In this document: positions 37,429 to 51,349 of the stretch, in pieces
How positions within the stretch are numbered: the stretch's first letter is position 1
Layout of the letters: every line of letters starts with the position of its first letter
Assembly (NCBI RefSeq): GCF_007970185.1
Contig: NZ_CP042431.1
Coordinates: 4,030,001-4,094,000, forward strand
Direction: 5' to 3'
DNA: 64,000 nt
From: Pseudobacter ginsenosidimutans
Lineage (GTDB): Bacteria; Bacteroidota; Bacteroidia; Chitinophagales; Chitinophagaceae
Notes under the pieces: model-generated
What the model was told of the DNA's origin: nothing
Database searches by the model: none
The model's input: the letters and a program-made list of their open reading frames with translations, nothing else
Position numbers and translations under genes: made by a program

Positions 37429-37514
37429 CCGGGCCTTCACCCGATCCAATGAAAAGCGGGTCATATAATGATGCACCGCGTAAACAGACCATTAAATTCA
37501 ATCACCAGCACCGG

Positions 37515-38687
37515 ATGAAATTATCCCAGGAACATATCAGACGCCTTCTCATGGAAAAGATCGCGGGAACGATCAGTGAAGAAGATGACCAGATGATCGA
37601 AGCGGAGATCGAACTTGACCCGGCGGTAAAAGCCAGTTGGGAAGCTATTTGCAGGACTATGAAGAGTGAAGAAGCAGAAGACTTCCTGAACAATCTCGAT
37701 GCAGATCGTTCCTGGGATTCGGTGGCCGCCAAAATACAGGCAGGTACTCCCGGCAGGTCGCGTCTTTACAAAAGGATAGCCGTTGCGGCGGCTGTGCTGT
37801 TGTTGCTGGTATCGGGGCTCTGGCTTAGCCTGAGACTCCGGAGCTCCGGCTCTTCGCCACTGGCTAAACAAACACAACTGTCAGGAAAAAGTACAGATAG
37901 CCTGCAACATGCAGTGGGACTCTACATGGCAGATGGAAGACAGATCAATTTGACGGATAGCGCAGGTCGCGTGATCGATCTCGGCGATGCCGCACTCAAT
38001 ACTTCAGGCAACAGCATGCAATTGCAGGCAGCCAAAACAGGAAAACAGGAATGGACAACCGTTTCCGTTCCTGCAAAACTGGATTACCGGATCGTGCTGG
38101 CAGATGGTTCTGAAGTATGGCTCAATTCCTCTTCCAGTCTACGGTTCCCGCTGCGTTTTACCGACAGTTTACGCGAAGTATTCGTGGAAGGTGAGGCGTT
38201 TTTCAGGATCAGTAAAAATGCTTCGCAGCCTTTTGTTGTACATAGCAAGGCTGCAGATATCCGTGTACTGGGCACTGCTTTCAATGTTCATGCTTATCAT
38301 GCCGGTAAGGCAACCATCTCTTTGGTGGAAGGTTCCGTTAAAACACGGATACCTGGTGCAGAAAAAGAAACTATGTTGAAACCCGGACTGGAAGCGGTGA
38401 TCGATACGGCAACAGGATCCAGTGTCCGCAGTTTCAAATCTGCCAATACACTGTCCTGGATGAAAGGCATTTATTATTTTCATGATATACCACTTTACGA
38501 GATCGGCGAAGTGTTGGAGCGCTGGTTTGGACTTACACTTGTATACAGCGATGCATCATTACGCAATCTCCCCGTTACCGGCGCCATCGAGAAAGATCAG
38601 CCACTGGCAGATTTTCTTTCCAGTCTGCAAACCACAGCCGGTATCAAAACCGAGATCCGCCAAAATCAATTATACCTCATCAGATAA
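37515..38687 (+). CDS. FecR-family anti-sigma factor, locus 3
   Basis: An N-terminal cytoplasmic region (LSQEHIRRLLMEKIAGTISE), a membrane helix near residues 90-108 (IAVAAAVLLLLVSGLWLSL), the FecR domain (VPAKLDYRIVLADGSEVWLN, GEAFFRIS, VLGTAFNVHAY) and the C-terminal DUF4974 domain (LYEIGEVLERWFGLTLVYSD) are all visible. The frame is open to 37449, but the ATG at 37515 starts the family-typical N-terminus. It should couple the locus 3 SusC to its sigma factor. A strong terminator directly downstream separates it from susC. Confidence 0.92.
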   Translation: MKLSQEHIRRLLMEKIAGTISEEDDQMIEAEIELDPAVKASWEAICRTMKSEEAEDFLNNLDADRSWDSVAAKIQAGTPGRSRLYKRIAVAAAVLLLLVSGLWLSLRLRSSGSSPLAKQTQLSGKSTDSLQHAVGLYMADGRQINLTDSAGRVIDLGDAALNTSGNSMQLQAAKTGKQEWTTVSVPAKLDYRIVLADGSEVWLNSSSSLRFPLRFTDSLREVFVEGEAFFRISKNASQPFVVHSKAADIRVLGTAFNVHAYHAGKATISLVEGSVKTRIPGAEKETMLKPGLEAVIDTATGSSVRSFKSANTLSWMKGIYYFHDIPLYEIGEVLERWFGLTLVYSDASLRNLPVTGAIEKDQPLADFLSSLQTTAGIKTEIRQNQLYLIR

Positions 38688-38814: not shown

Positions 38815-41800
38815 ATGATGAAATTTGCCCTGGTTCTGAAGCGATCTTGTCTGCTCGGGATCGTTTTGATCATCACCAACTGCTGCCTGTTTGCGCAGGA
38901 CACCAAAAAGATCACGCTCACTGCTGCCAGCATCAGCTATGAAGATATTTTTGAAACGATACGCCAGCAAACCGGCCTGATCGTTTTTTATACCAATCAG
39001 CTGCTGAACGACAAAGAAAAGATCAGTGTCGATTTTCAGTCCACCCCACTGACGGCTGCGCTTCAGCAGATCTTCAACAATAAGAGCATCGGCTGGAATT
39101 TCAATAATAAATTTATCGTGCTGCGAAAAAAAGCGGAAGAGCCTGCAACGCAGGCACCTGCCGCCAATGCGCCGGCAGGCATCAAAGTGCAGGGATTGGT
39201 CACCGATGAAAAAGCCAGTCCGGTTTCAAATGTTACCGTCAAACTGAAAGGCGCTTCCAGTGGTGTGATGACGGATGCCCTGGGCAAATACTCCATTACG
39301 GTACCGAATGAAAAATCGGTGCTGGTCTTTACCCATGTAACCTCATTGGCCGAAGAGATCCTGGTCGGGAAAAACCAGGTGATCAATATAAGCCTGAAAT
39401 CCAAGGACGATCATCTGGCCGATGTGGTAGTGATCGGTTATGGCACTACACGTAAAAAAGATGTAACGGCATCGATCTCCTCCGTATCCAAGGAAGCATT
39501 GTCAGACAGAACATTATTATCACTGGCAGATGCTATGAAAGGCAAGGCTTCCGGCGTACAGATCATTCAGAACGATGGTACTCCCGGTTCGGAGAATACG
39601 ATCCGTATCCGCGGCGCAAGTTCCATCAGCGCGGGCAGTACGCCACTCTTCGTGATCGATGGCGTATTGCAGGATGATGCCAATAATATTAATCCGGGCG
39701 ACATTGAATCGATCGAGATCCTCAAAGATGCTTCGGGCACTGCCATCTATGGAGCGCGTGGCGCCAATGGCGTAATATTGATCACCACCAAAACAGGTAA
39801 GACCGGAAAAACGAGAATGGAACTGTATACCAATATCGGTTTCCAGCGTGCCGGTCACCTGTACGACCTCATGGATGCATCTGAGTATGCGCATGCCCGT
39901 TATCTTGCATCAGGCTATGTCTGGTCGGCCCCCGATCCCAATGACCCCAACAAACCCGCTACCACACAAGCTGGTATCACTTATTACCGCGACAGCCCCC
40001 TGGGAGAGACCGGTAGTTTCTGGGGCGTGTCTGAAGACAATGCCTTTGCCAATTGGCAAAACTTCAATCATCCCGATTCCACCAATACTGACTGGCAGCG
40101 CGCCATGTTCCAGAACAGCAAAGTGCAGGAATATCGTTTCAATGTTTCCGGCGGTAATGCCAATACCAAATTCTCGCTCATGGGTGGTTATCTCAATCAG
40201 GGAGGATTGGTGGTATACAGTGGTTACCAGCGATACAATGCACGATTCAATATCCAGCAAAGACTTTCCAAAAACATTCAGCTCACCGCCAATCTGCTGG
40301 GCACACGTACGGAAACCAACGGCTTCATTACGGGCTCTTACAATGGTGGCATCACGTCAAATGCAGTGGTCACCAGCATGCTGCAGCAACCTCCTGTGAA
40401 GCCATTGACATTTACCGATGTGGAAGACAATGAAGGAGTGGAAGGCTATATCACCAGCAATCCCTATTCACTGGCGGAAAAAGTTACGAACAACAGGTTC
40501 AGCAATGAATGGCTTGCCAGGATGGCCGCAGACTGGACCATCACCAATAATTTCAGCTTCAGGATCACCGGTACTTATTCAAATATCAATACGAATACAG
40601 ACGCATATTATCCGCGTTATACGCAGGCAGGCTCCAAGTACAAAGGCCGTGCGGTATTGTCGCGCGGAACCATCACCAAAATGATGAATGAGAACCTGCT
40701 CTATTATAAAGGCAGGATCGGTGACGAGCATCGGTTCAATGCGATGGGGGGCGCTATCGTGGAGCAATACAAGAATAACCTGCTTACTGCGGAGAACCAG
40801 AGTTATGATATCGAATTACTCGGGCCATACGGATTGGGAAATGGAACAGTGCCTATCATCCCAACCTATTCCATCACACAATGGAGAATGATGTCTTTCC
40901 TCGGCAGACTGGAATACTCATTCCGTGAAAAATATCTTGCTACAGTTACGATGCGTGCAGACGGTTCCTCCCGTTTCAGCAGGAACAATAAATGGGGTTA
41001 CTTCCCTTCAGCTGCGCTGGCCTGGAGAGTTTCGGAAGAGCCCTTCATGAAAGACCTGAAATTCATCAGCAGCATGAAACTGCGTACCAGCCTGGGACAG
41101 AGCGGGAACACTGCCATTCCGCCTTATCTAACGTTAAGTACAATCTCTACTTATTTTTCTCCGATGGATGGCCTTACACCCAATTTCGGAGTAGTGGTGG
41201 AAAGACCTGAAAACCCCACACTCAAATGGGAAACCACCACACAACTGGATGCCGGTATCGATATGACGCTCTTCAACGATAAGGTGTCGCTCACTATCGA
41301 CTGGTACACCAAGCGCACAGATGATCTGCTGATTCAGGTAGTAACTCCGGCTTACAGCGGTTACAGAAAAACCTGGACCAATCTCGGCTCTATACGAAAT
41401 GCAGGCGTTGAATTGACTATCGGCACCAGCCTTGTAAGAAAGAACCGGTTCAGCTGGAGCATCGATGCCAATATCGGTCTCAACAGATCCAAAGCCATTG
41501 AAGTAGGACCTGACCTGAATCTCGATCCCGGCGTAGTGGCAGGCGTTGGAGCCGCAGCCATCATCCGCAACGGGCAAACCATCGGACAATGGTATGGATA
41601 CCAGACCAACGGTATTTTTCAATCCTATGCAGAGATCCAGGCTTCCGGTCTTACCATGATCAATGGTCAGGCTATCAGCGCCATTCGCCCTGGTACACGC
41701 CGTTTCATCGATCAGAACAATGACGGTGTTATCAACTCATCTGATCGTGTAGTGATAGGGCAGGGCCAACCCGAATTCACCGGAGGCATAACCAATACTT

Positions 41801-42306
41801 TCAGTTACCAGGGATTTTCCCTGAATGCGGTTGTGCAGTACAGTTATGGTAACAGGATCTTCAATGCCAATCGTGTTGCCCTGGAAGCAGGACGAAGCAG
41901 CAACAATATGACCAAAGGCGCTACTGATGCATGGAGCCCTTCTCTGTACGACATGAATACCGGTAAACTGCTGAGAGAAGGTAATCCCGGCAATACATAC
42001 CGGATGCCGGGCAGCCCTGAAGAATTACTGATGATGGATGCCTGGATCGAAGACGGCTCCTATATCAGGTTAAGCGATGTAACGCTTTCATACTCCTTCC
42101 CTGTGAAAGCTACAAAGAAATTCGGCGTGCAGGGTTTGAGCCTCTTCGCCAGCGGGAAGAATCTCTGGATCCTGACAGATTATTCAGGATATGATCCTGA
42201 AGTGAATACAAGGCAGGGAGGATTCGGAGACCTGATGCCCTCACTCGATTATGCATCTTATCCCCGCTCCAGGGTATATTCATTCGGTTTAAAACTTCAA
42301 TTCTAA
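38815..42306 (+). CDS. SusC/RagA TonB-dependent transporter with STN domain, locus 3
   Basis: A normal-length signal peptide (MMKFALVLKRSCLLGIVLII to LFAQ) is followed by an STN domain (KITLTAASISYEDIFETIRQ), a carboxypeptidase-regulatory-like domain (KVQGLVTDEKASPVSNVTVK), the plug (VVVIGYGTTRKKDVTASISS; IEILKDASGTAIYGARGANG) and the barrel ending in SFGLKLQF. The STN domain fits control through the FecR and sigma genes upstream. The second Met (38818) is an equally good start. Unlike loci 1 and 2 it lacks the extended N-terminus and the conserved leader hairpin. It is intact although several genes after it carry frameshifts. Confidence 0.93.
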   Translation: MMKFALVLKRSCLLGIVLIITNCCLFAQDTKKITLTAASISYEDIFETIRQQTGLIVFYTNQLLNDKEKISVDFQSTPLTAALQQIFNNKSIGWNFNNKFIVLRKKAEEPATQAPAANAPAGIKVQGLVTDEKASPVSNVTVKLKGASSGVMTDALGKYSITVPNEKSVLVFTHVTSLAEEILVGKNQVINISLKSKDDHLADVVVIGYGTTRKKDVTASISSVSKEALSDRTLLSLADAMKGKASGVQIIQNDGTPGSENTIRIRGASSISAGSTPLFVIDGVLQDDANNINPGDIESIEILKDASGTAIYGARGANGVILITTKTGKTGKTRMELYTNIGFQRAGHLYDLMDASEYAHARYLASGYVWSAPDPNDPNKPATTQAGITYYRDSPLGETGSFWGVSEDNAFANWQNFNHPDSTNTDWQRAMFQNSKVQEYRFNVSGGNANTKFSLMGGYLNQGGLVVYSGYQRYNARFNIQQRLSKNIQLTANLLGTRTETNGFITGSYNGGITSNAVVTSMLQQPPVKPLTFTDVEDNEGVEGYITSNPYSLAEKVTNNRFSNEWLARMAADWTITNNFSFRITGTYSNINTNTDAYYPRYTQAGSKYKGRAVLSRGTITKMMNENLLYYKGRIGDEHRFNAMGGAIVEQYKNNLLTAENQSYDIELLGPYGLGNGTVPIIPTYSITQWRMMSFLGRLEYSFREKYLATVTMRADGSSRFSRNNKWGYFPSAALAWRVSEEPFMKDLKFISSMKLRTSLGQSGNTAIPPYLTLSTISTYFSPMDGLTPNFGVVVERPENPTLKWETTTQLDAGIDMTLFNDKVSLTIDWYTKRTDDLLIQVVTPAYSGYRKTWTNLGSIRNAGVELTIGTSLVRKNRFSWSIDANIGLNRSKAIEVGPDLNLDPGVVAGVGAAAIIRNGQTIGQWYGYQTNGIFQSYAEIQASGLTMINGQAISAIRPGTRRFIDQNNDGVINSSDRVVIGQGQPEFTGGITNTFSYQGFSLNAVVQYSYGNRIFNANRVALEAGRSSNNMTKGATDAWSPSLYDMNTGKLLREGNPGNTYRMPGSPEELLMMDAWIEDGSYIRLSDVTLSYSFPVKATKKFGVQGLSLFASGKNLWILTDYSGYDPEVNTRQGGFGDLMPSLDYASYPRSRVYSFGLKLQF

Positions 42307-42326: not shown

Positions 42327-44050
42327 ATGCAATCAAGATCAAGTTTTCTGTTCTGGGGTATTTTGAGTGTATCGATACTTGGCGGTACAAGTTCCTGTAA
42401 TAAATTCCTGGAAGAAAAACCCATTACAGAATATACGGCAGATAATTTTTTCGTTGACAAAACAACGCTGGATGCCGGCATCGTAGGGATCTATTCCTCT
42501 GCCAAAGATCTGTTTGGCGTTTACACCAATACGCCGCTGTTCATGACGCAGCTGGGTACAGACGAAGCCATGTTCAAAGGAACATCCGGTGTCCGTTTCA
42601 GTTTCGACAGGCATTCTTTCTCTCCGCGCGAGGGCTCTATTTATGAATATTGGTTAAGGCATTATGAGATCGCTGCAAGGGCCAATACCATTATCGATGC
42701 AGCAGCCCGTGTATCATCCATTTCGGAAACCGACAGGAATATGATCACAGGCGAGGCCCGCTTTGTGCGCGCTTTCGTGTATTTCAGGCTGGTGCAGGCT
42801 TTTGGTGAATTGCCCATCATCGATAAACCCATCAAAGGTGGTTTCGATTACAGCCTGCCACGCAGGCCCATCAGGGATGTGTATGATTTCATCGTGAATG
42901 ATCTCGTTTATGCCGCTACGGAAGGAGTGTTATCCAAACAAAAAACGAATAATGGACATGCCAATCATTGGGCTGCCAAAACCCTGCTGGGAAAAGTGTA
43001 TCTCACTATGGCATCCGCCAAGGAAACGGCCCTCACCAAAACCACCGGTAAAGTAGATGGGTATAAAGATATTCCTGCTGATATAACTGAGCTCTATGGT
43101 AAGGCAAGGGATGTGTTGGGAGATGTGAAAGACAATAGTGGTGCATCACTGCTTCCAGTGTATGGAGATGTATTCACGATAGAGAATAAAATGTAAATGC
43201 TGAATCTTTGTTCGAGCTCCAGTTTGCCGCTACAGTTCCATATGGTACACAATGGACGAAGGAATATGGAATGATCGCGGCCGGAGGGCAAATCAATGGC
43301 AATCCTGCTTATTATACCAATTCCATGATCGGCCAGTGTAACCTGGTGTATGTGCCGAAGTTTTACAAGTATTACAAAAGCGGCCCCAAGGTAACGGACT
43401 ACGACAAACGAAGGGTCTGGAACCTGGCAGATTCCATTGTGAATATTGCCAACAATGTGCCCGCCAGTCTTACGTATATCTGGGGTACTTTATACAATCC
43501 CGACAAATACAATCAAACGATACTGGGTAGGTGCGGCGTTACCAAATACAGATGGGGCGCCAGTTGGAGGGCAAGTTCGCAATACCTGTATTCCAATTGT
43601 CCCAATAATGTGATCGTACTCCGTTATGCCGACGTGCTGCTGATGTTTGCAGAAGCTGATTTCAAATCAACGGGAACGATCTCTGCGGAAGGGCTCGAAG
43701 CCATCAATCGTGTGCGTCAGCGTGCGCGTGGACTTAAACCGAATGGCACTCCGGTTACCGAAGCGGAAACGCCGGGCTTTAATAATTATACAGCTTCAGA
43801 TATCAATATCGATGAGATATTGAAGGAGCGTGCACGTGAATTGTGTTTCGAATTCCAGCGCTGGTTCGACCTGGCAAGAACAGGTAAGTTCGAGTATTTT
43901 CTGGAACTGACCCGTCCGGCCAATGATGCGAATATCGTGAACACGGCTACCAGCTTCGATCCTGCCACTCACTACCTGTTCCCGATCCCGCAATCTGAAA
44001 TCGACCTGTCCACCAATAAAGAACAATTCAGACAAAATCCGAACTATTAA
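42327..44050 (+). pseudogene. SusD/RagB-family lipoprotein, locus 3, broken by one frameshift
   Basis: The first part (42327-43196) has a lipobox near GTSSC and SusD marks ITGEARFVRAFVYFRLVQAF and HWAAKTLLGKVYLTMA, and stops at a TAA. The second part continues in another frame through LFELQFAATVPYGTQWTKEY, VLRYADVLLMFAEADF, ELCFEFQRWFDLARTGKFEY and [11 protein letters not shown] to the normal SusD end. One A missing from the run at 43188-43191 explains the break: adding one A restores ENKNVNAESLFELQ, which is what SusD proteins have here. Either the sequence has an error or the gene lost a base; nothing else is missing. If intact it would be a 574-residue surface binding protein for the SusC encoded 20 bp upstream. 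Confidence 0.85.
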
Positions 44051-44090
44051 CAGGGCGCCTTATCAGCAATACCCTAAAATCTTGATTGAG

Positions 44091-45719
44091 ATGAAAAGAA
44101 AGCATTTCCTGGTTTGTTTACTGATTCTGGTAACAACCATTCCGTCCGTATCCGTACATGCGCAAACAAATTCCGGTAAGAAAAATTATGATGTTGTTGT
44201 ATACGGAGGCACAGCTTCCGGTGTGATTGCAGCAGTAACTGCTGCAAGGGAAGGCATGCGTGTAGCCATTCTTGAACCGAAGACCCACCTGGGTGGCATG
44301 GTATCCGGCGGGCTCTCTGCTACAGATCTGGGCCGCAAGGATGTGATCGGCGGCTATGTGAAGGAGGTTTACAAAAGGGCAGGGGATCACTACAAAGTGA
44401 CTGCTAAAGATGGCATCGCCTGGTTCCCTGAGCCGCATGTAGCTGAAAAAATGCTCAACGATATGGTGAAAGAGGCAAAAGTGGACGTATTCTTCCAGCA
44501 CCGCCTGAAAGAAAAGGGAGGCGTTGTTAAAAAGAACAAAGCTATCACCGGGATAAAAATGGAAAACGGAACTTCCTTCACTGGCAAGGTATTCATAGAT
44601 GCCACGTATGAAGGCGACCTGATGGCTTTTGCAGGCGTATCGTATGTAGTTGGCCGTGAGGCACAAAGCCTGTACAATGAATATTCCGCCGGCATTCGTG
44701 AAGGTTCAGGCCATCGCAGTGCATATGGCCCTGACGGAAAACTCCTGTTCGGCATTCAGCCAAATCCTCCCGGCCCCATTGGCGCAGGTGATAAGAAGAC
44801 CCAGGCTTATAATTTCAGGTTATCGCTCACCAACGATCCAAATAATAAACGCCCTTATCACAAGCCGGAGGATTATGACACGAATCGCTATTATGAATTG
44901 CTGCTCTCCACCCTGGATGCCATTAAGAACCTGGGTGCTGTGGAAGCCGCTGCAAAAATGTTTCCCGGTCCTGGTAAAGTTCCCAACAATAAAGTGGACC
45001 TGAACACGGCGGATTATGTGGGAGGTAACTGGGATTATCCGGATGGCTCTTACAAAAGAAGGGCGGAGATTTGGAAGGACCATGAGAATTATGTAAAAGG
45101 GTACATGTATTTCCTCGCCAATGATCCGCGTTTACCTGAAGAATACCGTGCAGGCATCAACCTGTGGGGCCCTTCCAAAGATGAATTCACCGATAACGAT
45201 AACTGGCCTTATGAACTGTATGTGCGCGAAGCCAGGCGTATGCTGGGTGAGTTCGTGATGATCCAGAAGGATGTGATCTCCGAAATGCAAAAGCCTGATC
45301 CCATCGGTCTGGGCTCTTATGGACTGGATGTTCACCGCGTACAGGGATATGCAGATGCAAAAGGTATTTTGAAATATGAAGGCGGCGTTCAACGCACTGA
45401 GCAGGAACGCATGAAACATATCCCTTACCAGATCCCATACCGTAGTATCGTTCCAAAAAAATCACAGGTATCCAATCTCCTGGTGACCGTTTGTATCTCC
45501 ATGAGCCATGTTGTATGTTCATCCCTCCGAATGGAGCCGCAGTATATGATCATCGGACAGGCTGCTGGTAACGCCGCTACCATGGCCATTCAGAATAAGA
45601 AAACTGTTCAGGATGTGGACACCAAAGCGCTTGGTGAAAAATTGCTGAGCCAGGGAGCTATCCTTGAGCACAAACTGAAAACTCTGGCTGATCTGCCCGC
45701 AGGAAAAAAAGAACAGTAA
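44091..45719 (+). CDS. FAD-dependent oxidoreductase (FAD_oxidored-like), exported
   Basis: A signal peptide ([20 protein letters not shown] to VHAQ) precedes a Rossmann FAD-binding start [20 protein letters not shown] and the family landmarks [55 protein letters not shown] and the C-terminal [20 protein letters not shown]. These are the marks of the FAD-dependent oxidoreductases often found in polysaccharide loci of Bacteroidota. The substrate is not known; oxidation of a sugar or sugar-derived alcohol is plausible (inference). It follows susD by 40 bp and is intact. A TTG at 44082 extends the frame by three residues, but the ATG fits the signal peptide. Confidence 0.87.
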
Positions 45720-45736
45720 AAAAATATTACCGTCTC

Positions 45737-47460
45737 ATGTTCAAACAATTTGTACTCGTATGGATGCTGGGATGTAGCGCCCTGGTTGCTGCTGCCGGCA
45801 ACAGAACAGACAGTGCCTATGGATGGCCTGCACAAAAAGCTCCAACGTCCATCATTACCTGCAGTATCCAGCGCGGGAGTGATCTCAGGGAAATGAATCT
45901 TGCACAATCCGTGGCTGGACTGGCAGCGCAATCGCTCAATGAAGGAAAGACGAAGGAAGGCGTGTGGATTAGTGTATCCAATCCCAATTATGCCATCTAT
46001 TACCGGTCGCTGGTGAAACGGCTGCATGCAAAGGAAGCAGGAAGTCTTACTGCCTGGCAACTGGTTGACAGGTATGTCCCAATAGGCATCATCAAAGGAT
46101 ATGTTTTGTATGATGTGAGAAAAATGGACAATTCCGTTAACCTCGCCACTGTGTATGCAGGTCTGATGAAAGGGATCCTTGTTGATCTGTCTGAGGAAGC
46201 AACAGCCAGGGAAAAAGGACTGGTGAAATTATTCGACGCATCAGCCATCGATCCTGATCTGTCCACTTTTCTTCCTTTAAAAGAAAAAGTGAACAGGAAC
46301 CTGATGGTGCTTTGCAATCCTGAATTCAGTAATAACCGTGATTATGCCATTGCGCACAAGAGCCTGGTATGGCATGGGGTTGATTCCACGCTGAAAGGTT
46401 TGCTGGAATGGATACAGCCATTGTCGCCCGTAATCGGATGGAACAAGGGAGGTGAGTTCCAGCATATAGAGCCCTGTACACGGCGCGGTCTCATCAATAC
46501 AGCGTCCGACTGGTGTGTGAACCTCAGCCTGCTGAGTATTTACGAAACCAAAGCGCCTGCGAAGATCAAATCGCTGGCGCCAAAGGAGATCAACTGGAAT
46601 GATCAACGCAATTGCCAGTCTTTCGTGATGAGCGATGGCGACAATATGCAATGGACATTCGGCGATTTCATCAGCAGCAAGGATTACTGGTCCAATCCTT
46701 CCAATAGTGGTATTAATATGTCTTTCACTTCCTGCGTGGTGAATCTTTCTGCCGGGGCAGGGATGTATATGATGAGCTGCAACGGACACAGCCTGCAGGT
46801 GTATCTGTAGTGGAATATGGCGGAGGCTATTTTTACCCTGACCTCTTTGCAACGGCTACTGGTGAGCCTGAAAAGTGGTTGCGCGAACTGGCGAAACGCA
46901 TGAACAAACAAATGAAACTGACAGGTGTGAAAGTGCTCGGATTCATTTGCAGGAATATGTCGGGAGAAGCAGCGCAGCGCGCTTACCGGATCTTTGCGGA
47001 AGAGATCGAAGAACTTACCGGGATCATTGCTGTTCAGTATTCACCTTATAATGCCGGAAGGGGAAAAATATTTTGGGTAAAGAACAGGAAGGGTGCTGAA
47101 ATACCTGTTGTAACCGCTCGCTACCAACTCTGGCATAACCTGAAAAAAGAAGGTTCAGGCAATCCTGCAGAGCTGGTAGAGATGATCAATGAAGATGATT
47201 CAAAGGCTACTGCAACTGACCCTGCTTTGTCCTGGACTATCGTACATGCATGGTCGAGGTTCAATGAGCCCGGAAAAATAGTACATGCAGTATCCGATTC
47301 TGAGGAAGCGAAAAGACATGGTACCGGCGAGCGGGGTGTAACACCAGTCAAATGGATAGCAGATAGATTATCGTCCAATACAAGAGCAGTGAGCATTGAA
47401 GAACTGCTCTGGCGTATCAGGATGCAATACCATCCGGAAGAAACAAAGAAATTATTCTGA
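45737..47460 (+). pseudogene. GxGYxYP-type putative glycoside hydrolase, broken by one frameshift
   Basis: Part one (45737-46810) has a signal peptide, a region with SQ/NLAQSVAGLAAQSL and FDASAIDPDLSTFLPLKEKV, then SFVMSDGDNMQWTFGDFISS. Part two in another frame carries YGGGYFYPD, the signature that gives the GxGYxYP family its name. The join lies at the G runs 46754-46762: one extra G would give DVYDELQRTQPAGVSVVEYG reading straight into part two. The family is annotated as putative glycoside hydrolase on structural grounds; its reaction is unproven as far as I know. It sits between the two FAD oxidoreductase genes and 17 bp after the first. Whether the break is real or a sequencing error is open. 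Confidence 0.75.
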
Positions 47461-47472
47461 TAAAATAATGGA

Positions 47473-49365
47473 ATGAAGAAACCAATAATAGCCTGGTGGC
47501 TGAGTGCAATATTGATCTGTATCCTGCCATCAGTACCTTTTGCGGCATCTGCGCAAACCAGTGCATCCTTTGATATAGTAGTGGTTGGTGGAACGCCTGC
47601 CGGTATCATGGCTTCCATATCTGCGGCCAGGATGGGAAAGCGTTCTTTGATCCTGGAGCGCACCAGTCATGTGGGAGGGCTTGTTGCCAACGGTCTCGGC
47701 GCTACGGATATCATTACCCGTGGGCCACTGCGGGCCTTTTCCTTGAATTCGTGAATCGTGTGAAGGCTCATTACGTGAGCGCCTACGGGCCACAATCCAA
47801 ACAGGTAAAGGATTGCAGCCAGGGCTATCATTTTGAGCCATCTGTTGGGGAGAAAGTACTGCTGGATATGCTGAAAGAAACCACATTGGTAACGGTGTTG
47901 CTCAACCGACAGTTTGATGCGCTGCCTGAAAATCTTTTGATCGAAAACAATACTATCAAAAGCATCACGGTGCTGAACCGGCAGTCGCAGCAAAAGGAAC
48001 AATTCAGCGGAGCTGTTTTTATCGATGCCACCTATGAAGGCGATCTGATTGCGGCAGCCGGCGTGCCTTACAGCCTTGGAAGAGAAGGAAAGAAAGAATT
48101 CAATGAGCCCTATGCCGGCCAGGTGTACAAACTCTGGCTTGCGGAGAGGCAGGAGGAGGGACTACCAATCTCGCGGATAATGCGGTGCAGGCTTATAATT
48201 TCAGACTATGCCTCACTACTGATCCGGCCAACAGGATACCTGTTCCAAAACCGGCTGCTTACAACAGGGAAGAATATGTTTCACTGATCGAAGATGTTTT
48301 ATCTGGAAGACATTCGGGTATTGAATGGGCGGATATGCCGCAAAAGTTAAGAGACAGTAATATTGCATTGCGGGCGCAGGGAAAAGCGCCGGTTGGCAAG
48401 TGGATGCCGGAAGGGATCCAGCGGCTGGTGAACAAAGTGGTGTTGCCGAATGGAAAAACAGATGCCAACAATCAGCACCGCGCATTGCTCTCTACTGACC
48501 TTCCCGAAGAGAACTGGCCCTGGCCTACGGCAGGCTGGGAATGGCGTGATCAGTTTGCAAACAGGTTAAAAGATTATATCCTTGGACTTTTGTATTTCGG
48601 GCAACATGATGAAGCGCTGCCTGAATGGTTTCGAAATGATTGTTTGCAATGGGATTGTCTGCCGATGAGTTCAAAGACAATGGCAATTTTCCCAGGCAGG
48701 CATATGTGCGCGAAGGCAGAAGGATGAAAGGGCTCTATCTGTTCAAGGCAGCCGATGCATTGCCGCTGATCAATGGAGGACGGCCTCCTCTGCATACCAG
48801 CAGCATCACCGGCAGTCATTACGATATCGATTCACATGCTACAAGGAAAAGGGAAAAAGGGAAAAATGTACTGGACGGATTTCTCAGTTATCCTACCATG
48901 CCTTATACCGTGCCCTTCGAAGTGATGGTACCGCCAGTGATCTCCAATCTGCTGGCGCCTGTTCCTGCTTCCGCCACTCACCTGGGCTTCGCTACTTTAC
49001 GCATGGAACCCTGCTGGATGGCATTGGGTCAGGCAGCAGGTATTGCCGCTTCAACAGTGATATTATCAGGCAAACCTGTACAGAAGGTCCCGGTAACAAC
49101 AATCCAGGATGAATTGATCAGGCAGGGAGCAGTGTTGATCTATTACAAAGATATCAATCCAGCTCATCCTTCTTTCAAGGCCGTTCAAAAAATTGGATTG
49201 AAGGGATGGTTGCCGGATTGGACGGTGAGACCGGATGAAAAAGTGAAAAGAACAGAGTTGGATGAATGGCAGAAATTATCCGGACTGAAATTCCCGAAAC
49301 ATATTCAAGCCAATCAAAGTACCAGGAGTGAAGCCATCCAGTGGCTTTTCTCGAAGGCTCAATAG
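47473..49365 (+). pseudogene. Second FAD-dependent oxidoreductase, broken by three frameshifts
   Basis: Four fragments in successive frames (47473, then about 47725, 48161 and 48652 onward) add up to one paralogue of the protein encoded at 44091: signal peptide, [107 protein letters not shown] and LRMEPCWMALGQAAGIAAST. Each break is a missing G in a GGG run (47722-47724, 48158-48160, 48651-48653); restoring one G at each gives RGATAGLFLEF, EEGTTNLADNAVQ and CLQWGLSADEF, all family-typical. After three losses the frame returns to the first one. It would be about 630 residues if whole. Confidence 0.8.
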
Positions 49366-49372
49366 AATTTTC

Positions 49373-50104
49373 ATGAACAGAAAACAATTCCTTACCAGGT
49401 CTGTGCTGCTGGCGGCAGGCAGTGGACTGTTAAAGATAGCTTCCGCAAATACGCCGGTGCAGCATGCTGCCGGCACGGAGCTGCTGGTCAATGCCGGCAT
49501 TGCAGGCAACAACACGAACAACCTGCTGAAGCGGATCTACACAGATTGCCTGGCACATCAACCAACGCTTACTATTCTCATGATCGGCACCAACGATATG
49601 AATAATGGCAAGCATGTTCCGCTCGAAAAATTCAGGAACAATCTGAATATGCTATCTGATAGGATCATCAATTCAGGCAGTCAATTGATGTTGATGACAA
49701 TCCTGCCCTTCTATGAACCTTATTTGTTGTTAAGGCACCCTGTGGCATTCTTTCAACCTGAAGGGCCGGAAGGGAGAAGGAAGCAGGTGAATGAAGTGAT
49801 CATAAAGACAGCAGCAGAAAGGAAAGCCGGCTTGCTAGATATCGGCAGTATCTTCGAAAAAGTAGGAAAGATCGGTCTTGAAAAAGATTGCCTGCTGCGA
49901 AATAAAGAGAATAGTGGAAAAGAAGATGGTGTTCATCCCACGCGTGAGGGCTACCGTTTTCTCGCACTGGCAGTAAGCCAATACATTCAGTACAATCACC
50001 ATGATGCCCGCCGCATCGTTTGCTTTGGCGACAGCATCACCAAAGGCGATGGTTCTGTAGACAAAGAAAGCTATCCGGCATATTTGAAAAAATTATTATC
50101 ATAA
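49373..50104 (+). CDS. SGNH hydrolase with circularly permuted catalytic blocks
   Basis: After a signal peptide (MNRKQFLTRSVLLAAGSGLL) the mature chain begins at what is normally the second conserved block (LLVNAGIAGNNTNNLLKR), continues with the third (MIGTNDMNN, Asn74) and the fifth (EDGVHPTREGYRFLA, His188), and only then shows the first block, IVCFGDSITKGDGS with the catalytic Ser near residue 221, ending in SYPAYLKKLLS. In ordinary SGNH/GDSL esterases the GDS block and its helix open the domain. No GDS block exists at the N-terminus here and nothing continues after the stop. The product is probably a periplasmic esterase (for example of acetylated sugars; inference). It lies 7 bp after the broken FAD gene. 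Confidence 0.85.
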   Translation: MNRKQFLTRSVLLAAGSGLLKIASANTPVQHAAGTELLVNAGIAGNNTNNLLKRIYTDCLAHQPTLTILMIGTNDMNNGKHVPLEKFRNNLNMLSDRIINSGSQLMLMTILPFYEPYLLLRHPVAFFQPEGPEGRRKQVNEVIIKTAAERKAGLLDIGSIFEKVGKIGLEKDCLLRNKENSGKEDGVHPTREGYRFLALAVSQYIQYNHHDARRIVCFGDSITKGDGSVDKESYPAYLKKLLS

Positions 50105-50125: not shown

Positions 50126-51349
50126 ATGCGTAATCCCTCTGCCTTGAAACAACTGTTATCCGTACCCGTTATTGTTGCTGCGCTTGGTTATTTTGTGGAT
50201 ATCTATGATCTCCTGTTGTTCAGTATCGTGCGTGTGCCCAGCCTGCGTGCCCTGAATGTTGGAGACGATCAATTGCTGCAGCAGGGCATCTTCCTCATCA
50301 ATACACAAATGGCAGGCATGCTGCTGGGAGGTATTCTCTGGGGTATCCTGGGTGATAAGAAAGGACGGCTGTCAGTGTTGTTCGGATCGATTGCCCTGTA
50401 TTCACTGGCAAACATCGCCAATGGCTTTGTGACCAACGTTGACCAATATGCGATCCTTCGCTTCATTGCGGGCGTGGGCCTGGCAGGAGAATTGGGAGCG
50501 GGGATTACACTGGTAGCCGAAGTGTTGCCGAAGGAGATCAGGGGATATGGTACTTCCATTGTTGCATCGGTAGGCGTACTGGGCGCTGTGCTGGCTTATT
50601 TCATTGCAGATCTCTTCGACTGGCGTATCGCGTATTTTATAGGAGGAGGGCTGGGGCTGGCTTTACTGGTATTAAGATTCAATGTTTTTGAATCAGGTAT
50701 TTTCAAGCATGTGAAGGAAGCGAATGTTGCACGGGGAAATTTCTTTGCCCTCTTCAGTTCATGGAAACGTTTTGTAAAGTACCTGCGCTGCATCATGATC
50801 GGCCTGCCTATCTGGTTCGTGATCGGGATTCTGATCACTTTCTCTCCTGAGTTTGGCGTGGCAATTGGTCTTCATACTCCCATACAGGCAGGAAAAGCTG
50901 TTATGTTCAGTTATATAGGCTTATCACTGGGCGATATGAGTAGCGGTCTGCTCAGTCAGTATTTGAAAAGCCGAAAGAAGACGGTGGCTGTATTCGTTTG
51001 TCTGACGGCCCTTGCCATGCTGGTGTACCTGTTGCAGCGTACACAAAGTGTTGCAGTATTTTATAGCTTATGTCTCTTCCTCGGATTTGCGATCGGTTAC
51101 TGGGCGCTGTTTGTGACCGTTGCTGCAGAACAGTTCGGTACAAATCTTCGCGCTACTGTGGCAACCACAGTCCCCAATTTTGTAAGGGGCAGCGTGAATG
51201 TTTTCACCCCTTTGTTCCTGATGGGTGTTGAACAGGCCGGATTCCTGGGTTCCGCTGCCATGGTGGGCGGGGCAACAATTGTGCTGGCCTTGCTGGCAGC
51301 ATGGAGAATGGAAGAAACTTTTTCCAGGAATCTTGATTTTACAGAATAG
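50126..51349 (+). CDS. MFS transporter
   Basis: At 407 residues it shows about 12 hydrophobic segments and the MFS loop signature GILWGILGDKKGRLSVLFGS between helices 2 and 3, with a second marker EVLPKEIRGYGTSIV after helix 4. It belongs with the sugar/sialate/aromatic-acid-type MFS carriers and sits in the inner membrane. As last gene of locus 3, 21 bp after the SGNH hydrolase gene, it probably moves the processed substrate from periplasm to cytoplasm. The substrate cannot be read from sequence; no sialic acid or aromatic catabolism genes are present to guide a guess. Confidence 0.88.
   Translation: MRNPSALKQLLSVPVIVAALGYFVDIYDLLLFSIVRVPSLRALNVGDDQLLQQGIFLINTQMAGMLLGGILWGILGDKKGRLSVLFGSIALYSLANIANGFVTNVDQYAILRFIAGVGLAGELGAGITLVAEVLPKEIRGYGTSIVASVGVLGAVLAYFIADLFDWRIAYFIGGGLGLALLVLRFNVFESGIFKHVKEANVARGNFFALFSSWKRFVKYLRCIMIGLPIWFVIGILITFSPEFGVAIGLHTPIQAGKAVMFSYIGLSLGDMSSGLLSQYLKSRKKTVAVFVCLTALAMLVYLLQRTQSVAVFYSLCLFLGFAIGYWALFVTVAAEQFGTNLRATVATTVPNFVRGSVNVFTPLFLMGVEQAGFLGSAAMVGGATIVLALLAAWRMEETFSRNLDFTE

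Follow-up and report, generated by a model that had tools for sequence, protein, structure and literature searches.

The gene at the centre of this analysis lies within a window of 64,000 nucleotides of the Pseudobacter ginsenosidimutans genome (contig NZ_CP042431.1, positions 4,030,001–4,094,000), and very probably encodes a small, complete SGNH hydrolase in naturally circularly permuted form. From N- to C-terminus, the SGNH blocks of its product run G (G45), N (N74), D/H (D185 and H188) and S (S221), followed by a helix and the stop codon. The corresponding motifs are N40-A-G-I-A-G45-N-N, G72-T-N74-D, D185-G-V-H188 and F218-G-D-S221-I-T, with S233-Y-P-A-Y-L-K-K-L-L forming the end of the chain. 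The sequence blocks of the superfamily (the block I GDS, the block II Gly, the GxND Asn of block III and the DxxH of block V) are thus present; the superfamily order S-G-N-H, however, is absent, and the order G-N-H-S is found in its place. When checked against the ORF and its translation, the coordinates, reading frame, residue numbers and block order of the original prediction for this gene were all correct (Table 1).

Table 1. Features of the permuted SGNH gene and its neighbours, in window coordinates
Feature	Position	Strand	Details
FecR anti-sigma factor, neighbour	37449..38687	+	
SusC-like TonB-dependent receptor, neighbour	38815..42306	+	
SusD-like gene, neighbour	42327..44050	+	Two ORFs, different frames
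FAD_oxidored gene (another), neighbour	44082..45719	+	One open frame
GxGYxYP putative glycoside hydrolase gene, neighbour	45737..47460	+	Two pieces, different frames; one ORF in L025
FAD_oxidored (PF12831) gene, directly upstream	47473..49365	+	Four pieces, different frames; one ORF in L025
Permuted SGNH/GDSL hydrolase gene	49373..50104	+	243 aa plus stop; ORF, Pfam, homologue alignment
Putative export signal and linker, residues 1–33	49373..49471	+	Tat-like variant, R-K-x-F-L, ahead of the new first strand; sequence, low pLDDT of residues 1–30, low conservation; RR-x-F-L/I in 22/38 rows
Block II NAGIAGNNT, residues 40–48 (Gly45), now first block	49490..49516	+	Sequence, Pfam, conservation
Block III GTND, residues 72–75 (Asn74)	49586..49597	+	Invariant in 38
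Block V DGVH, residues 185–188 (Asp185, His188)	49925..49936	+	D185, G186 and H188 invariant in 38
Short linker, residues 208–213, old C-terminal helix to old first strand	49994..50011	+	Model secondary structure
Relocated block I: strand 214–219, FGDSIT with Ser221, helix 234–242	50012..50101	+	Sequence, conservation, Pfam, model, rotation scan
MFS transporter gene, directly downstream	50126..51349	+	MFS neighbour in 9/42 permuted loci

The displaced block is visible in the Pfam matches. The main match to Lipase_GDSL_2 joined residues 32–195 to profile positions 30–177 of 178, the front 29 positions being missing, whilst the C-terminal 33 residues alone matched positions 1–27 of the same profile (E 0.0014) and positions 1–30 of Lipase_GDSL (E 0.0023), a match that is, judged on these profile scores, beyond chance. 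An in-frame GDS block further upstream, incompatible with the original prediction, was searched for: positions 48601–49500 contain neither GDS nor GNS in any of the three forward frames, and upstream of the permuted ORF lies a different gene, FAD_oxidored, ending at 49365.

Reordering restores a colinear SGNH match

A reordered copy of the window protein was made by removing residues 1–26 and placing residues 211–243 first. Its score against Lipase_GDSL_2 was 83.2 bits in one stretch (profile 1–177) versus 74.9 bits in two stretches for the native order, and against Lipase_GDSL it was 77.9 versus 65.0; scored as parts, the core alone reached 60.5 and the C-terminal piece alone 19.6. At the family level, the native profile (A1, 38 rows) matched 7ddy over 26–204, the GDS piece aligning apart from this as a weak 6.1-bit segment earlier in the chain, whilst the reordered profile (A2, 11 rows) gave one colinear match, 2–203 to 7ddy and 1–204 to 1yzf. 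For 3p94, 4iyj and 9hi6 the match covered the core only, even with A2, and 3p94 and 4iyj scored slightly lower with A2 than with A1. Given their different numbers of rows, the scores of the two profiles are not strictly comparable.

In a rotation scan, the 38 mature proteins of the family (see below) were rotated in three-residue steps and scored with a profile built from 19 canonical SGNH proteins. These had come from the search with the reordered profile, nine of the 28 rows, long or fused, having been left out; that the 19 themselves score best unrotated is by construction. The best cut fell 7–11 residues ahead of GDS in 37 of the 38, and for the window protein the plateau extended from 132 to 177 (mature numbering), ending at the cut just before the GDS strand. 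All 38 proteins gained over their native order (median 14.4 bits); as a maximum over rotations cannot lose, it is the position of the cut that is informative. The reordering tests, the rotation scan, the ORFs described below and models with a C-terminal strand together support the original proposal that the fold has been circularly permuted, its first helix and second strand flanking the cut.

A conserved but patchily distributed family

Homologues were collected by blastp of the window protein against the ORFs of the gathered loci (E ≤ 1e-20), which gave 41 rows and, once three duplicate ORFs were dropped, 38 unique sequences, the window included. The order GTND, DGxH, GDS was found in all 38, with neither GDS nor GNS ahead of GTND in any of them. 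Homologues with the same order, which the original prediction had suggested looking for, rose to 42 unique permuted ORFs (about 40 genomes) when wider searches had brought the total to 112 loci. Pfam has no separate family for the 38 members, all of which it assigns (E ≤ 0.001) to Lipase_GDSL_2 and Lipase_GDSL, and the NCBIfam matches of the window protein are all far below cut-offs.

The distribution of the permuted family is patchy. The related loci returned numbered 30, of which 25 were strong (E 2e-65 or better) and came from Pseudoflavitalea, Chitinophaga, Dyadobacter, Spirosoma, Pseudarcicella, Pedobacter, Pararcticibacter, Mucilaginibacter, Arachidicoccus and a Sphingobacteriales MAG; the other five were weak and unlike the permuted pattern. 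With the genome of origin counted each time, the permuted kind occurred at family level in 16 of 294 genomes (E ≤ 1e-15; one with a broken copy), at class level in at least 4 of 395 (E ≤ 1e-25; up to seven candidates scored per genome) and at phylum level in at least 3 of 296 (E ≤ 1e-28; up to ten candidates scored per genome). One of the 92 genomes in the family of genome G761 had a match, namely G761 itself, and plasmid records contained no match to the permuted family at E 1e-15. The broken copy (L148, also L023) matches over residues 161–243 only and has one internal stop; a FAD_oxidored gene still adjoins it.

Within the relocated block, C217, G219, D220, S221, T223, G227, Y234, P235 and L238 are invariant in the 38 rows, as are N74, D185, G186 and H188 elsewhere in the chain; G45 is nearly so (90 % or more), its position being occupied by Asn in L024. 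The majority residue has a mean frequency of 0.78 over residues 214–242 versus 0.65 over residues 34–209. Compared with L025, a relative at 86 %, the window protein differs by three amino acids over the 34 codons at its C-terminus (dN 0.045, dS 0.86); the values for the core are dN 0.065 and dS 1.10. These codon comparisons indicate strong purifying selection on the C-terminal block, with a dN/dS of about 0.05.

The window protein was also predicted to carry a signal peptide directly before the new first strand. The evidence for it is softer: the Tat-like motif in the window is the variant RKQFL, and the N-termini of some other rows are Sec- or lipoprotein-like, L021 and L022 having the lipobox-like L-T-G-C and L-T-A-C just ahead of the first strand. 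RR-x-F-L/I is present in 22 of the 38 rows and an R-R/K-like motif in 28, both being minimum counts as some rows are trimmed at the start. From its N-terminus, we infer that the enzyme is exported.

Predicted structure

Structure prediction, likewise suggested as a check, placed the C-terminal segment as a strand in both of the proteins modelled. AlphaFold2 on A1 (the window protein) gave a mean pLDDT of 88.1 and a pTM of 0.82, with residues 16–18 and 20–31 under 50; the ten-residue block containing strand 214–219 averaged 94, that containing helix 234–242 averaged 91 and the loop between them 70. For a distant member of the family, L021, the corresponding values were a pLDDT of 94.5 and a pTM of 0.89, and the block with the relocated strand (201–206) averaged 98. 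A parallel alpha/beta/alpha fold is thus present by prediction, and the best Foldseek rows were SGNH structures, 1yzf for the window model (E 1.3e-6) and 7pzh for the L021 model (E 2.0e-6). The TM scores by query length were about 0.5, at E-values of about 1e-6; this is roughly what a sequential aligner would reach with one strand and helix at the other end, and would be expected for a permuted fold without being proof of it.

Origin of the permuted order

For phylogenetic analysis, the 38 permuted sequences in reordered form were combined with 28 canonical homologues that passed a coverage filter, giving 66 rows. The resulting tree placed two of the long canonical rows, weakly supported, within the permuted set; a single change was recovered in 44 % of bootstraps, and the AU test did not reject a single permuted group (p 0.417). 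With six long canonical rows dropped, the permuted group formed one side of a branch (95/90, and 96 % of 200 bootstraps), the program still warning of long branches meeting. The permuted family is therefore likely, but not certain, to be of one origin, which these sequence trees showed only after the six long canonical rows had been dropped.

A close canonical sister was sought with the reordered profile in 296 genomes of the phylum (where counts are minimum ones), 147 of the family, 39 relatives and the six genomes of named loci, and none was closer than E 9.8e-28, the value of the best full-length canonical match, which came from the 39 relatives. The matches under 1e-28 (at least three in the phylum and 12 in the family) all start at profile positions 30–34, and are hence of the permuted kind.

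As to a route, the permuted gene probably arose when a tandem duplicate lost sequence at both of its ends. Single ORFs with two tandem SGNH-like matches were seen in L091, L092 and L110 (690, 451 and 778 aa, respectively), the second match in L110 being weak and in pieces. Such ORFs show that related genomes do contain tandem fusions that could yield a permutant on trimming, and they are possible raw material for the circular permutation. The genome of origin itself carries two SGNH-like genes in tandem near 5.82 Mb (L002 and L005).

Genomic neighbourhood

The genes of the window locus are arranged in the order FecR, SusC, SusD, FAD_oxidored, GxGYxYP hydrolase, FAD_oxidored, permuted SGNH and MFS. 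Among them, the GxGYxYP gene, the FAD_oxidored gene at 47473–49365 and the SusD gene are frame-split, whilst in L025 each of the first two is a single ORF, to which the pieces are still 81–90 % identical; the locus has either decayed recently or contains sequence errors.

We compared the context (∼6 kb each side, shorter where a contig ended) of 42 permuted loci, comprising the window, 25 named loci and 16 others, one broken copy included, with 20 hand-picked stretches around canonical SGNH genes. Using neighbour profiles that had been seeded from the permuted loci, and with one control stretch (L115) lacking an SGNH match at threshold, we found a FAD_oxidored (PF12831) homologue in 35 of the 42 permuted versus none of the 20 canonical loci, SusD in 29 versus three, SusC in 26 versus four and FecR in 16 versus none. 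In the main clade (33 rows) FAD_oxidored was present in all 32 loci with context, that of L011 being left out. In five Dyadobacter loci (L045–L049), MFS, Gluconate_2-dh3 and GMC oxidoreductase genes come after the permuted SGNH and FAD_oxidored genes, an arrangement that suggests sugar or glycoside oxidation in the same pathway.

A distant subfamily (L139–L143) has FAD_oxidored in none of its five loci. In the three of these loci whose neighbours were scanned, L140 has dehydrogenases of the short-chain and zinc types, L139 an enolase-superfamily protein together with a symporter and a flavin oxidoreductase, and L142 a LacI regulator and a glucosamine-isomerase-like protein. With such neighbours, a role in carbohydrate metabolism may not extend to every member. 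A search of the open-licence literature for this locus context returned nothing.

Proposed function and alternative explanations

The block I strand and helix with the nucleophile are missing at the front of the chain and follow the C-terminal helix; in the proposed mechanism, strand 214–219 would take the central place in the sheet. From what is known of the fold, Ser221 would thereby come to lie next to His188/Asp185 and to the oxyanion-hole residues Gly45 and Asn74. Ser221 would then attack the ester, His188/Asp185 acting as the base and Gly45, Asn74 and the Ser backbone as the oxyanion hole. In the main clade the exported enzyme would work within a locus that has FAD_oxidored and mostly SusC/SusD genes. 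The most likely role predicted from sequence and context is that of an exported carbohydrate O-acyl (acetyl) esterase; our guess at its substrate would be an O-acyl group, most likely O-acetyl, on a glycoside that the locus itself processes. The fuller reading, which we hold to be somewhat favoured, is that of a second, separate natural SGNH permutation that arose once and leaves the nucleophile strand to be made last, giving a complete monomeric esterase that is often Tat-exported (folded before export), with one clade tied to FAD_oxidored carbohydrate loci.

A monomer is not the only arrangement that would accommodate a C-terminal nucleophile, as the GDS block could be exchanged with a neighbouring subunit in a domain-swapped dimer with a composite active site. 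Swaps do occur with terminal segments on short linkers, and the models were of monomers only; within these, however, the relocated strand has a high pLDDT at the pTM values given above, and the linker varies by only a few residues in length across the 38-row alignment, and we regard a swap as very unlikely. The frame-split condition of three neighbouring genes, indicating a region that is decaying or carries sequence errors, could suggest a decayed or mis-assembled SGNH gene in which the C-terminal GDS is a chance occurrence or a leftover. Against this stand the open frame of the permuted gene itself, the order kept in 38 of 38 unique ORFs and the purifying selection on the C-terminal block, and we attach next to no probability to it. 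An artefact of assembly or truncation was ruled out by the same shared order together with the lack of an upstream GDS.

A different activity must also be weighed, as the permuted SGNH proteins that we found described are, in the portions of those papers available, acetyltransferases or parts of acetylation systems; the window protein might accordingly be an O-acetyltransferase, like AlgJ/AlgX, PatB1 and WssI, and not a hydrolase. We consider this very unlikely: the cut differs (G-N-H-S versus H-S-G-N); the protein has GDS, Asn and D-x-x-H where the same portions give GTSYS, Tyr and D-x-H for AlgJ/AlgX; SGNH proteins of the esterase type are its best matches by sequence and by fold; and the window locus, with SusC, SusD and MFS genes, looks catabolic. 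Membership of the AlgX/AlgJ/PatB1 group was ruled out by the block order and, for AlgX/AlgJ, also by the block residues.

Relationship to known SGNH proteins and significance

The hydrolase reading places the protein closest to canonical SGNH/GDSL hydrolases such as 7ddy (AlAXEase), 1yzf, Axe2 (3w7v), 3p94 and Escherichia coli TesA (1ivn), with which it shares all four blocks, S, G, N and D/H being intact, and it is colinear with Pfam, 7ddy and 1yzf once the C-terminal block is moved first. It differs from them in order (G-N-H-S versus S-G-N-H), and the permuted proteins form a group separate from canonical homologues in the same and related genomes when the six long rows are left out. A similar SGNH core is found in sialate O-acetylesterases of Bacteroidota and in acylhydrolases related to them (6njc, 7pzg, 4iyj and 4hf7), of which 4iyj has the canonical order as far as profile alignments show.

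Natural circular permutation of the SGNH fold is itself a likeness to AlgJ/AlgX, PatB1 and WssI, for which the available sections of the reports give the order H-S-G-N or H-S-G-Y/D (PMC9487903, PMC4148444, PMC5697884, PMC10302187), and a review, in the part available, still counts the permuted AlgX and DHHW groups within the SGNH superfamily. In those proteins, according to the same sections, the cut lies before block V and block residues are altered, the last place being Y or D in AlgJ/AlgX and WssI. The window protein has G-N-H-S in place of the AlgX/AlgJ (DHHW/PatB1) order H-S-G-N, and the marks given there for AlgX/AlgJ (block III Tyr, block V DxH and block I GTSYS) are absent from it, the equivalents being GTND, DGVH and GDSIT. 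AlgJ/AlgX, PatB1 and WssI did not appear among the matches listed by the sequence search or by Foldseek of both models; Neisseria PatB, a different protein from PatB1, appears among the PDB profile matches and the L021 Foldseek matches.

In the original prediction, the arrangement was not known to be a described subfamily. For the G-N-H-S order this agrees with the open-licence literature, in which we found no description of it (subscription papers lying mostly outside the search), nor did the available main text of the CIRPIN paper and of a protein-language-model permutation paper contain a relevant passage on SGNH-type enzymes. Circular permutation of SGNH proteins as such, on the other hand, was already known from AlgJ/AlgX, PatB1 and WssI, as far as the parts of those reports available show. 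What is new, within the literature searched, is thus the G-N-H-S order.

To our knowledge, natural circular permutations inside an enzyme core that keep every catalytic residue are uncommon. As the main Pfam match starts at profile position 30, annotation may mistake intact proteins of this kind for N-terminally truncated ones. For the recurring FAD_oxidored/SusCD locus, the permuted SGNH gene would provide an added marker enzyme. A nucleophile-bearing central strand at the C-terminus, with canonical relatives in the same genomes, would offer a natural test of folding order and of the origin of permutations; if the reading is correct, the protein would be a minimal single-domain natural permutant, and would allow a direct test of whether central strand 1 must be made first.
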